Shown here: piece by piece, positions 47,600-51,131 of the stretch
Layout of the letters: each line of letters starts with the position of its first letter
How positions within the stretch are numbered: the stretch's first letter is position 1
NCBI GenBank assembly: GCA_029265715.1
Contig: JAJUGZ010000004.1
Coordinates: 1-64,000 of the forward strand
DNA length: 64,000 nt
Origin: Bacteroidota bacterium
GTDB taxonomy: Bacteria > Bacteroidota > Bacteroidia > Bacteroidales > Prolixibacteraceae
Reading direction: 5' to 3'
Notes under the pieces: generated by a model
Databases searched by the model: none
Told to the model about the DNA's origin: nothing
The model's input: only the letters and a program-made list of their open reading frames with translations
Translations under genes and position numbers: made by a program

Positions 47600-47781
47600 G
47601 AGATAGCCTAAAAACCGGAGCGTATACTCCAACCGAGAATGTACAAATGGCTATTCGCTTCGCGGATTTCACTGCGTGGATCTTTGCTGCGCTCCGATTC
47701 GCAAGCTCAATTCCATCCCGGTGCGAATTTTATGTTACGAAAATTGTACAAACCAACATTGAAAATTTATACGGATGAAAC
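47600..47781. repeat. Dispersed palindromic repeat, copy E, interrupted
   Basis: GAGATAGCCTAAAAACCGGA opens the copy and AATGTACAAATGGCTATT is its right core. The copy is then interrupted by 57 bp, after which CCATCCCGGTG and the tail TTACGAAAATTGTACAAACC, TTGAAAATTTATACGGATGA continue. Its end adjoins the stop codon of the 47781 gene. Confidence 0.75.
47656..47712. mobile_element. 57-bp GC-rich insert inside repeat copy E
   Basis: Compared with copies B and C, which read CTATTCCAT, this copy reads CTATT, 57 extra bases, then CCAT. The insert begins CGCTTCGCGGATTTCACTGC and ends GATTCGCAAGCTCAATT; its ends can form an imperfect hairpin, and ATT flanks it on both sides as a possible 3-bp target duplication. 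It encodes nothing. Confidence 0.55.
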
Positions 47782-48584
47782 TAATTTTCGTCTTTCACTT
47801 CAGATTCTTCTTCGATTTTTTTACTGCTTTTATTGTCAGGATGGTGTAAATCTTTGTGAACCTGCCGCTCGATCTGTCTCATGTGTGGTATCCCGGAGGG
47901 GATTGGGAAATCGGCAGAGTCAAAGTTAAAATTGACATTCATATCTTCGTTAGCCCGGTCTGATTTCTTTCGGATGATCTCGATCTTTTCGCGGCCACCG
48001 CTCAGATCTTTCTTTTTGAATGAAATCACATTCGGGGAATTCAGATCGATCACATTCCCTTTGTGAATCATCTTCACGCGAGGAACAGATGGAACAGGCG
48101 GTACCGGAGGAACACCTGGCATATTTTTCATTTTCGGCCCCCGAAAAACAAACACATCTTCGTCGCCGCCATTCCCTTTAAACCTTCTCACCATCATGTG
48201 CCGATACGTTGAGTCTCCTTCAGCTTTATCTTCGTCGAAAAACATGAAATGATCGCCGCCTTTATCGTTCCACATCAGGTGTTTCGGTCCCTCGCTCATA
48301 AACATCATCTCGTCGGCCATTTCTTCAAAGTCTTCGGGCATAGGTCTAAAATCCATCTCCCAGTCCGGGGCATTTAGCGTATCTCCTTGACAAACAAATG
48401 GTTTGTTGTCGGCAACCACGGTGTCCAACTCGGCTTTTTGGCCATCGACAATTTTGACCATTTTAATGCGACGTTTTTGCTCTTTTGTTGCCGGCAGGTC
48501 ACCGGGACGGCTGCTTGTTGTAAACGATGATAAAATCAAAACTCCCATGCTGAGTAACCCTGCATTTAAAATTGTTCGTTTCAT
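47781..48584 (-). CDS. Met/Pro-rich secreted protein of unknown function
   Basis: I do not recognise this 267-residue protein. It has a signal peptide-like N-terminus (TILNAGLLSMGVLILSSF), an acidic Met- and Phe-rich middle (EEMADEMMFMSEGPKHLM), a proline-valine linker (GVPPVPPVPSVPRV) and a charged tail. No enzyme motif is seen; the Met/His/Asp content could suit metal binding (speculation). The longest frame starts upstream, but ATG 48584 precedes the signal peptide. It lies divergent from the kinase/regulator pair across the operator at 48646-48687, so it is a likely regulon member. Confidence 0.7.
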   Translation of the reverse strand: MKRTILNAGLLSMGVLILSSFTTSSRPGDLPATKEQKRRIKMVKIVDGQKAELDTVVADNKPFVCQGDTLNAPDWEMDFRPMPEDFEEMADEMMFMSEGPKHLMWNDKGGDHFMFFDEDKAEGDSTYRHMMVRRFKGNGGDEDVFVFRGPKMKNMPGVPPVPPVPSVPRVKMIHKGNVIDLNSPNVISFKKKDLSGGREKIEIIRKKSDRANEDMNVNFNFDSADFPIPSGIPHMRQIERQVHKDLHHPDNKSSKKIEEESEVKDEN

Positions 48585-48614
48585 ATTTGTATCTTTTTGG
48601 ATGATTTCTGTAAG

Positions 48615-48622
48615 CAAAGATA
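48615..48622 (-). promoter_or_regulatory. -7 box TATCTTTG for the secreted protein gene
   Basis: Minus-strand match to TAnnTTTG, 31 bp upstream of ATG 48584 and 23 bp from the operator edge. Confidence 0.6.
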
Positions 48623-48645
48623 CGCCACCCGCTATCAAACAATGA

Positions 48646-48687
48646 GTTAACGGCGACTTAAAACCTGTTAACGAAAAGTTAAAATCC
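48646..48687. promoter_or_regulatory. Four tandem GTTAA-like half-sites (candidate response-regulator operator)
   Basis: Two 21-bp units, GTTAACGGCGACTTAAAACC (plus T) and GTTAACGAAAAGTTAAAATC (plus C), agree at 15 of 21 positions. Half-sites GTTAAC, CTTAAA, GTTAAC, GTTAAA begin at 48646, 48657, 48667 and 48678, spaced 11, 10 and 11 bp, the spacing of OmpR/PhoB-type direct-repeat sites. The block is 23 bp from the minus -7 box and 22 bp from the plus -7 box. Confidence 0.6.
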
Positions 48688-48709
48688 GGAACGCTCGCAT
48701 TTTTCTACT

Positions 48710-48717
48710 TATATTTG
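48710..48717 (+). promoter_or_regulatory. -7 box TATATTTG for the sensor kinase gene
   Basis: Perfect TAnnTTTG match 42 bp before the GTG start and 22 bp downstream of the operator block. Confidence 0.65.
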
Positions 48718-48758
48718 AATCCGGAACAATCAGATAAAACTTAAAAGAAAACTTCGCA

Positions 48759-50429
48759 GTGAATAAGCGGATCGTCACCGGCTTAATTATCCTGATGGGC
48801 ATCTCTATCCTGGGAATTGTAATCATCCAGCTGGTCTGGATGAACAATGCCATTCGGTTGCGGAACGAGTTGTTCGACCGAAGCGTTAACGAAGCGCTGG
48901 CCCAAACATCGCGCAGGCTCGAAACCATGGAGGATTTCCGGATTATCAATCATTTTGCCTTTGGCGATTCGGTTCAGTGGCACGAGCTTCCGCCTATTCC
49001 TCCTCCTGTTCCGCAACGGATTAAATTTTTCCCCAAAGGCAAGCCAGGTGACATAAAAAGAATGCTAACAGGTAAAGGCCGTCAAATTACGCAGATAACG
49101 GTCCGGTCTGATGGTAAAAAGAAAAGTGGCAAATTCTGGTTCGATTCTGATAGCGACAGTCTGCAGAACATCCAGATCAATAATACCCATTTCGCATTTG
49201 TTAATGCCGACAGCCTGGCACACCGGCTCGATTCGATCTATACCCATTCACTGGGGCAAATTGATTCGCTCATGGAAATTTCCAGCACATTTGAGTTCGA
49301 AGCTCCCGATGTCAGACGCCGCATCGAAATGAAATCGCACAACTTGAAGAAAATAGCCAGCAAGGTAGTTACCGAACTTAAAGCGCAGGAGCGGAAGCCA
49401 ATCCCTCCCGAACGGATTCAGGCAATACTTCAGCACGAACTATCCAATCGAGACATCCCAGTCGCGTTCGAGTTTGGTGTTGTGAGCGATTCAGTCCAGT
49501 CAAGTCGGTCAGCCGAAGCCGATTCGTTGTTGCTTGCAACCAGTCCCTACCAGGTAAACCTTTTCCCGAACGATATTTTCCAGAAAGACATTCGCCTTTC
49601 GGTTTATTTTCCAGGCAAAGAAATGTTCATTTATAGAACGGTCAGCTGGCTGCTTCTGGCTTCGTTGCTTTTTTCGGTCATCATGCTGGTCACGTTTGCG
49701 CTCAGTATTTATTTTATCCTGAGGCAAAAGAAAATCTCCGAGATGAAATCGGATTTTATCAACAACATGACACACGAATTTAAAACACCGATTGCCACCA
49801 TTTCGGTCGCGGCCGATTCGATTGCCAATCCGAAAGTAATCGGGAACCCGGAGCGTATCCGCTATTTTTCGGAGATGATCAAGAAAGAAAATACCCGGAT
49901 GAACCGCCAGGTTGAAGACATTCTGACCATCGCCCGGCTCGACAAAAAAGAGTTCGAATTCAAGTGGGAAGCTGTCAACCTTCACGATCTGATCAACGAT
50001 GTGATTGAAAGTATTGCCTTGCAGGTTGAGAAAAAAGGCGGCAGAATTGAAACAGGATTCGACGCACAAAACCCGGTGGTTACCAGCGACCGTATCCATT
50101 GTGCCAATGTGGTTTATAATCTGATCGACAATGCCAATAAATATTCGGCGGATGCCCCTGAAATCAAGATCTTGACAAGAAATACCCATCGCGGCATTTT
50201 GTTCTCGGTTGAAGATAACGGCATCGGGATGAGCAAAGCCGTGCAAAGCCGCATTTTCGAGCGCTTTTACCGGCAAACCAGCGGGAACATCCACAACGTG
50301 AAAGGGTTCGGGCTGGGACTCAGCTATGTGAAAGCCGTTGTCGAAGCCAATCACGGACAAATAACCGTACACAGTGAACCGGGAAAAGGCAGCCGGTTCG
50401 ATGTTTTTATCCCTTTTATACGCGAATAA
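48759..50429 (+). CDS. Sensor histidine kinase, RprX-like
   Basis: This 556-residue inner-membrane kinase has an N-terminal membrane helix (VTGLIILMGISILGIVIIQLVW), a periplasmic domain of about 260 residues with a Pro-rich patch (LPPIPPPVPQRIKFF), a second helix (about 290-320) and the kinase core. The phospho-acceptor is His339 in INNMTHEFKTPIATIS; ATPase boxes are NLIDNANKYS, VEDNGIGM and GFGLGLSYVK. Translation starts at GTG 48759. The regulator gene starts 4 bases after its stop. The pair resembles Bacteroides RprX/RprY in length and order. Signal unknown. Confidence 0.88.
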   Translation: MNKRIVTGLIILMGISILGIVIIQLVWMNNAIRLRNELFDRSVNEALAQTSRRLETMEDFRIINHFAFGDSVQWHELPPIPPPVPQRIKFFPKGKPGDIKRMLTGKGRQITQITVRSDGKKKSGKFWFDSDSDSLQNIQINNTHFAFVNADSLAHRLDSIYTHSLGQIDSLMEISSTFEFEAPDVRRRIEMKSHNLKKIASKVVTELKAQERKPIPPERIQAILQHELSNRDIPVAFEFGVVSDSVQSSRSAEADSLLLATSPYQVNLFPNDIFQKDIRLSVYFPGKEMFIYRTVSWLLLASLLFSVIMLVTFALSIYFILRQKKISEMKSDFINNMTHEFKTPIATISVAADSIANPKVIGNPERIRYFSEMIKKENTRMNRQVEDILTIARLDKKEFEFKWEAVNLHDLINDVIESIALQVEKKGGRIETGFDAQNPVVTSDRIHCANVVYNLIDNANKYSADAPEIKILTRNTHRGILFSVEDNGIGMSKAVQSRIFERFYRQTSGNIHNVKGFGLGLSYVKAVVEANHGQITVHSEPGKGSRFDVFIPFIRE

Positions 50430-50432
50430 CTT

Positions 50433-51131
50433 ATGGACGAAAAAGAACATATTTTTTTGCTGGAAGACGACCTCAGTTTCGGAGCCGTCCTGAAGTCTTA
50501 TCTTGAAATTAATGATTTCAGGGTAACCTGGGTCGACGACGGGAAACTGGCCATCGACCGCTTCCGGAATGGCAGTTTCAGCATCTGCATATTAGATGTC
50601 ATGCTGCCCAACGTCGATGGGTTTACCGTCGGGACTGAAATCCGGCAAATGGACCGCAGTATCCCGATTTTGTTCCTGACAGCCAAAAGCATGCGCGAAG
50701 ATGTTCTGAAAGGGTATCAACTCGGCGCCGACGATTACATCACCAAGCCGTTCGATACCGAAGTGCTGATTTTTAAGCTGAAAGCTATCCTGAAACGCCA
50801 TAACGGATCGACAGTAAAAAACGACGATATGTTTAGCATCGGGTCTTTCGTTTTCGACTATAAGCTGCGAACCATCGAGCGCGAAAGCTGGCAGCAAAAA
50901 CTTTCGCCCAAAGAGGCCGAACTGCTGAAAATGCTTTGCGAAAATCAAAACGAGCTCCTCCCACGCGAAGCTGCCCTAAAAAAAATTTGGGGAGACGATG
51001 GCTATTTCACAGCCCGGAGCATGGATGTTTACATTACCAAACTCCGGAAATTTTTCTCCGGCGACCCGTCCATCGAGATTAAAAACATTCACGGCAGCGG
51101 CTTCCTGCTCGAAGTAAAAAAAATGCAGTAG
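50433..51131 (+). CDS. OmpR-family response regulator, RprY-like
   Basis: This 232-residue regulator has a receiver domain (acidic pocket LLEDD, phospho-acceptor Asp55 in CILDVMLPNVDG, Thr in FLTAKS, Lys in ITKPF) and a C-terminal winged helix (SIGSFVFDYKLRTIER to GSGFLLEVKK) of OmpR/PhoB type. Such regulators bind direct repeats spaced about 10-11 bp, which matches the block at 48646-48687. It is co-transcribed with the kinase. In Bacteroides the homologous pair affects antibiotic and stress responses, but the target genes here are unknown. Confidence 0.92.
   Translation: MDEKEHIFLLEDDLSFGAVLKSYLEINDFRVTWVDDGKLAIDRFRNGSFSICILDVMLPNVDGFTVGTEIRQMDRSIPILFLTAKSMREDVLKGYQLGADDYITKPFDTEVLIFKLKAILKRHNGSTVKNDDMFSIGSFVFDYKLRTIERESWQQKLSPKEAELLKMLCENQNELLPREAALKKIWGDDGYFTARSMDVYITKLRKFFSGDPSIEIKNIHGSGFLLEVKKMQ

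Follow-up and report, generated by a model that had tools for sequence, protein, structure and literature searches.

A four-half-site operator between an RprY-like two-component operon and a divergent secreted-protein gene in Bacteroidota, probably the control point of a Cpx-like circuit

Results

Genes at the locus

The window, by which we mean the whole 64,000-nt stretch of DNA that was analysed, contains a secreted-protein gene on the minus strand and a kinase-regulator operon on the plus strand that diverge from one another, with an array of short repeats in between. The leftward gene (47781–48584, minus strand) encodes a protein of 267 aa with an N-terminal hydrophobic, signal-like stretch and two blocks that are conserved in the alignment. 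It matched no Pfam and no NCBIfam family at E ≤ 1, a domain scan found neither Por_Secre_tail nor CHU_C in it, and its low-confidence structural model (mean pLDDT 50.1) consists of two hairpins and much disorder. On the other side lies a sensor histidine kinase of 556 aa (48759–50429, plus strand) with a GTG start, HisKA and HATPase_c domains and a large N-terminal sensor region (mean pLDDT of the model 71.4; below 50 in the sensor insert, residues 70–182), the nearest tree relatives of which include records named Prolixibacteraceae. The secreted protein and the kinase were also compared, and homology was rejected (hhalign probability 0.8%).

The kinase gene is followed by that of a 232-aa response regulator (50433–51131, plus strand), which has the two domains that place it in the OmpR/PhoB type (Response_reg PF00072, 4.4e-26; Trans_reg_C PF00486, 8.2e-16). 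Its nearest NCBIfam family is RprY (NF051850), for which it scored 283.8 bits against a curated cut-off of 370, and the same genome (G000) encodes a separate RprY, on G000:C104, that scored 397.5 bits. We therefore rejected the identification of the pair, which the first-pass annotation of this DNA had called RprXY-like, as RprXY itself; judging from its sequence, the regulator is a paralogue of RprY. Among 66 aligned regulators the region RSMDVxIxKLRK was nearly invariant, with RSL variants occurring.

Layout of the operator and its promoters

The array spans 48646–48682 on the plus strand and reads GTTAA-N6-CTTAA-N5-GTTAA-N6-GTTAA, with half-sites starting at 48646 (GTTAA), 48657 (CTTAA), 48667 (GTTAA) and 48678 (GTTAA), that is, in the steps of 11, 10 and 11 bp that the first-pass annotation had described. 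Its designation as an operator draws on sequence, conservation and recurrence in other genomes. The annotation had also called it symmetric, which is true of the spacing pattern only, because the half-sites themselves are direct repeats. GTTAAC is a palindrome, and the four-site array therefore scores on the reverse strand too. At ≤1 mismatch and with any 10/11 spacing allowed, the window held one array and 200 dinucleotide shuffles held none. Across its whole genome the window array was the only one at ≤2 mismatches (both strands match), one further place had 3 mismatches, and a reversed control pattern had 0 matches at ≤3. Further arrays, which the annotation had proposed to seek genome-wide, were thus missing from this genome at ≤2 mismatches and were found in other genomes. 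A two-site match was also seen between two divergent genes at G000:C167, with no counterpart in the genus list. No description of this operator was found in the literature searched, mostly open-access text and available in part.

On either side the array faces a −7 box of the TAnnTTTG type, one per strand, in agreement with the boxes on opposite strands that had been proposed. The putative kinase promoter carries TATATTTG at 48710–48717 (plus strand), 27 bp beyond the last half-site, and the putative secreted-protein promoter carries TATCTTTG at 48615–48622 (minus strand; CAAAGATA on the plus strand), 23 bp from the first half-site, so that the 22–23 bp first given for both sides fits the left one only. 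Using the −12 to −5 position of such boxes, as given in the available portion of PMC9723704, we placed the predicted start sites at ~48722 and ~48610, which would leave leaders of ~37 nt for the kinase and ~26 nt for the secreted protein.

Conservation at kinase-homologue loci

We examined conservation at 30 kinase-homologue loci, one of them the window itself. At each, the array was placed at the best half-site score within ≤480 nt in a fixed 11/10/11 frame, and the first −7 match per side was reported. Conservation of the half-sites in relatives, the test that had been set in advance for the operator proposal, left it standing: the fixed-frame score was 20/20 in 24 of the 30 loci and ≥18/20 in 29. 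The right gap, between half-site and kinase −7 box, was 27 bp in 26 loci and 28 in two, and the left gap, towards the secreted-gene box, was 23 in 22 loci and 22 in three; a left gap of 2 in L011 and L012 is owed to the first-match-only rule. Column identity over 28 rows (L027 was excluded, along with a row that lay too close to the end of its contig) was 0.99 in the half-sites, a value partly built in because half-site score decided where the array was placed, 0.90–0.91 in the −7 boxes, 0.74 in the spacers and 0.64 in the other flanks. Over the 20 genus rows the corresponding values were 0.99, 0.98–1.00 (1.00 for the secreted-gene box), 0.81 and 0.72. Neither the −7 boxes nor the spacing to them played any part in choosing the place of the array. 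Of 23 genus genomes, 21 had a pattern of two sites plus a −7 box at this locus; it occurred in only two other places, with 3 matches for the reversed control.

A divergent homologue of the secreted protein was detected by tblastn in 26 of the 30 loci, and the proposal that the operator is shared between the two-component operon and the secreted-protein gene was borne out to the extent that this layout is kept. The four loci without a homologue differ from one another. One (L015) is cut by a contig end, one (L029) carries a different ORF that begins with a signal-like stretch, and one (L030) has all four half-sites, yet no divergent ORF was detected. In the fourth (L027), tblastn found no secreted-gene homologue, and an unrelated 164-aa ORF stands in its place; here two half-sites are left, and the gap to the kinase −7 box is exactly 27 bp. 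This single case resembles a natural deletion, as if the two missing half-sites had served the lost gene.

Recurrence in other genomes

In an order-level sample, the array was present at ≤1 mismatch in 31 of 149 genomes, against 3 genomes for the reversed control, and a kinase lay directly downstream in 25 of the 29 loci fetched from the 41 places found. Named public genomes held at least 118 exact arrays. Among the 118 matches listed, a histidine kinase was directly downstream in 73, degP in 17 and neither in 28 (kinase-downstream counts take one array per locus). The promoter geometry followed this division: the 73 listed kinase loci had a right −7 box at 26–29 bp in 58 cases, a left one at 21–23 bp in 64 and both in 52, and the 28 listed arrays before neither gene had a right box in 3, a left box in 6 and both in 3, with a chance background of 0.25% for a box in a 4-nt window. 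Among those 28 listed arrays, 7 were followed by <200 bases of DNA and 13 lay in records titled as archaea or non-Bacteroidota bacteria (Ignavibacteria counted in).

In an even sample of the phylum, the array was found at ≤1 mismatch in 10 of 296 genomes, the window's own included, and of 11 more array loci that were retrieved, only 1 had a kinase downstream. Across the phylum the four-site form is patchy, and the idea that it is a phylum-wide mark was rejected on the count of 10 in 296. Two records stood apart. One distant genome (G457: C19, C26, C45; L223, L225, L226) carries three exact arrays, none of them before a kinase, and may have a larger regulon. Another record (L168), titled as an Alphaproteobacteria MAG, contains the array, the kinase and a family 1 gene (see below), probably through a binning error.

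Divergent secreted-protein families

By the ORF rule applied here, 124 of 147 array loci had a divergent ORF, and two large families could be distinguished. Family 1 comprises 48 proteins, mostly of 200–400 aa, and includes close relatives of the secreted protein in the window. Family 2 comprises 26 small secreted proteins of 75–120 aa, most of them Lys/Cys-rich, next to kinases of ~430 aa; metal or redox binding is a possible role. Among the matches listed, the 73 kinase loci had family 1 at 36, family 2 at 19, another ORF at 6 and, by the same rule, none at 12, so that 55 carried a divergent gene of either family. For the 25 order-level kinase loci the figures were 9, 6, 7 and 3. A scan of the window's protein together with 36 of the 48 family 1 proteins found Por_Secre_tail, the type IX secretion tail, in 14 of these 37 and CHU_C in two.

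In a kinase tree of 71 rows, the family 1-linked (31) and family 2-linked (17) kinases separated with one change each, whereas shuffled labels required ~14 changes and 0 of 500 shuffles came as low as the observed value; the tree also holds 23 rows in no group and some long branches of uncertain placement. Because the families separate in this way, secreted-protein family and kinase clade go together.

Sites before degP and other candidate targets

Within the genus, a half-size version of the array (GTTAAANNCTGTTAA) stood before degP in 22 of 23 genomes; in the remaining one (G009), no full degP was found. The 23 genomes held 52 occurrences of GTTAAANNCTGTTAA, against 14 of its reversed control, of which 22 were assigned to degP by coordinates, 16 to the kinase-locus array, 11 to a short ORF and 3 elsewhere. 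In the window's own genome, degP/HtrA (G000:C177:35840-37279, minus strand) has the site GTTAAAATCTGTTAA, conserved in the genus, ~126 nt upstream. Among the 20 genus loci that were aligned, out of 22 fetched (two are truncated close to the start), the site was 0.98 identical and a −7-like box lay exactly 49 bp past it in 17. The equivalent pair at the kinase locus ends 38 bp before its box, and the degP site is thus one turn further out.

The 17 public loci with an exact array before degP/HtrA, among the matches listed, are titled Polaribacter, Tenacibaculum or Flavobacteriaceae. They had a right −7 box at 26–29 bp in 16 cases and a left one at 24–26 bp in 15, and one array-linked DegP that was checked had trypsin and PDZ domains. 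On the Polaribacter BM10 chromosome the only exact array is the degP one; at ≤3 mismatches there were 8 matches against 7 for the control, so that only the exact array is meaningful there. Among eight degP loci taken from the order's other families, two (L264 and L265) had a GTTAA pair and six had no clear one.

These sites make degP a likely further target of the window regulator. It need not depend on that regulator, because two genus genomes, G006 and G020, keep the degP site and no regulator orthologue was found in them (best identity 46–47%; the G006 assembly is in 1070 contigs), and degP may also answer to RprY. G020 retains the secreted gene and the array, together with a truncated kinase start where the contig ends; at that locus (L302, G020:C168) the kinase frame stops after a few codons, reflecting either a broken locus or an assembly break.

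A third candidate target is an ORF of 63–68 aa beginning M[LI]EYAK[VD]ILPK, seen in 11 genus genomes, all 11 of which were read. In the window's own genome, GTTAAACACTGTTAA (G000:C19:30492-30506, L304) stands before such a short conserved ORF (MIEYAKVILPK...), near trpA- and trpB-like genes, and 10 other genomes of the genus have it in the corresponding place.

RprY and its relatives

The closest named system is RprX-RprY of Bacteroides and Porphyromonas. Besides the family match, the recognition region of RprY is nearly the same as in the array-linked regulators, and GTTAA repeats precede rprX in the window's own genome and in G006. Cross-binding by RprY is likely on these two grounds. The available portions of the P. 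gingivalis literature describe RprY as binding its own promoter and chaperone promoters in EMSA (PMC3646045, PMC5706477) and judge it a repressor (PMC3646045); in the RprY literature searched, available in part, no DNA consensus was found. The two systems differ in that the window regulator, a paralogue, scores under the family cut-off and its genome encodes an RprY above it, and in that the rprX region of that genome has neither a four-site array within 5 mismatches (11/10/11 frame) nor a divergent ORF of ≥150 aa.

Two other kinase-regulator pairs of the same genome have repeats of this kind. The pair on G000:C199 (L229:2618-2655) has degenerate GTTAA repeats and a divergent small secreted protein, Lys/Ala/Thr-rich by eye, and the pair on G000:C2 (L228:2600-2807) has three GTTAA half-sites and a divergent 363-aa protein with a signal-like start, presumably DUF1573-like.

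Discussion

Direct repeats about one helical turn apart are typical of autoregulated operons of the OmpR/PhoB type, in which they lie upstream of the operon's own promoter, and the window has just such tandem repeats, at 10–11 bp, upstream of its kinase-regulator operon. It departs from the general case in that a single array keeps constant distances to two divergent promoters across many genomes, and in that the secreted-protein family tracks the kinase clade. The shared operator most likely belongs to the adjacent OmpR-type regulator.

The first-pass annotation had likened the arrangement to that of cpxP and cpxRA. In the Cpx system, as far as the available portions of the sources go, the kinase-regulator operon and a secreted-protein gene diverge with the regulator's box between them (PMC12802237, PMC3158067), degP is a target of CpxR in E. 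coli (PMC12802237) and the CpxR box reads GTAAA-N4-8-GTAAA (PMC3158067). The locus shares with it the divergent secreted-protein gene with a box, presumably the regulator's, in between, and the tandem GTxAA-like half-sites; degP, before which sites of this kind lie in two groups, may belong to the regulon here. However, the half-site is GTTAA/CTTAA, in four copies at 11/10/11, rather than a CpxR box; the regulator is nearest to RprY and comes from another phylum; and the secreted protein shows no CpxP/Spy domain. We rejected CpxP homology, and do not file the protein as CpxP, because it matched no family at E ≤ 1. The likeness thus holds for the layout and stops short of the protein: the arrangement and its probable targets appear to work like Cpx, and by sequence the locus is not a member of it.

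We regard the operator as the probable control point of an envelope-stress circuit with a layout like that of the Cpx system of E. coli. We put at roughly three in four the probability that the regulator in its phosphorylated form binds the array and switches on both divergent promoters. The product of 50433–51131, once phosphorylated, would occupy the four half-sites head to tail, probably as two dimers. It would then activate two sigma-A promoters, that of its own operon to the right, where the outer half-site covers about −44 to −40, and that of the secreted-protein gene to the left, where the corresponding range is about −40 to −36. An envelope condition would be sensed by the kinase, the secreted protein would be made in proportion to signalling and would most likely feed back, as CpxP does, either on the kinase sensor or on the envelope, and degP would be a likely further target. 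From the layout we infer that the regulator binds, that it activates and does not repress, that the signal is envelope stress and that there is feedback; feedback through the secreted protein is plausible in view of the frequent pairing and of Cpx.

An activating regulator that reads four tandem half-sites for both promoters is suggested by their positions, the fixed gaps and the L027 case, and activation is favoured because no half-site covers a −7 box, all of them being upstream. The same positions weigh against repression of one or both promoters, the mode of action for which P. gingivalis RprY offers a precedent: the half-sites end 23–27 bp upstream of the boxes and overlap neither box nor start, and proximal sites at about −36 to −44 are the usual activator positions for OmpR/PhoB regulators. 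We thus consider repression improbable. Still less probable is that an unrelated transcription factor reads the array and the kinase-regulator pair is merely adjacent. The 17 exact arrays before degP among the matches listed, and the distant genome with three arrays and no kinase downstream of any, would suit such a factor, but 73 of the 118 listed arrays stand before a related kinase-regulator operon at matching promoter distances. Chance repeats in AT-rich DNA can be given next to no weight. The half-sites are indeed short and AT-rich, and nearly half of the listed arrays before neither kinase nor degP (13 of 28) lie in archaeal or non-Bacteroidota records; against this stand the empty shuffles, the reversed controls in the own genome and the order sample, a geometry kept across genomes and the conservation itself.

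A different alternative, compatible with activation by the adjacent regulator, is that RprY and other regulators throughout the RprY-like clade also bind the array as their operator, which would make it a shared hub. It would account for the near-identical recognition regions of RprY and the array-linked regulators, for the GTTAA repeats before rprX in two genomes, for the degenerate arrays at the two further kinase-regulator pairs (C199 and C2) and for the degP site being retained where the present pair was not found. It fits less well with a four-site array that occurs once in the genome, with an rprX region that lacks one within 5 mismatches, and with a two-site-plus-box pattern that in the genus hardly strays from this locus. 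We rate it as less likely than not.

Control of both divergent promoters by the adjacent regulator, our preferred reading, could be extended to a Bacteroidota equivalent of Cpx with an accessory protein of another kind. A clade of RprY-like kinases, many with a clade-specific secreted reporter, would share one bidirectional operator with the reporter gene; a type IX-tailed reporter would signal on export through the outer membrane, and failed export would retain it in the periplasm, alter kinase activity and induce DegP. This extension is speculative, and as a whole we think it unlikely to hold. In the literature searched, available in part, there is little on how Bacteroidota control envelope stress. 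Through its fixed layout, the operator points to probable targets of a kinase clade and marks two functionally uncharacterised families of secreted proteins as probable partners in signalling. It also supplies a DNA motif for regulators resembling RprY.

The geometry may also bear on translation. Counted by position, in any frame and with ORF starts assigned mechanically, an ATG or GTG lies 38–41 nt past the array, that is, at the predicted start site, in 41 of the 73 kinase loci among the matches listed, and in many of the listed loci the kinase itself starts 39 or 40 nt past the array. The kinase mRNAs at those loci may therefore be leaderless or nearly so. The window kinase is an exception, with its GTG ~37 nt downstream of the predicted start. 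In B. thetaiotaomicron, according to the available portion of PMC7366714, 5′ UTRs of <10 nt are scarce (~3.7%), and the examples named include two sensor kinases.
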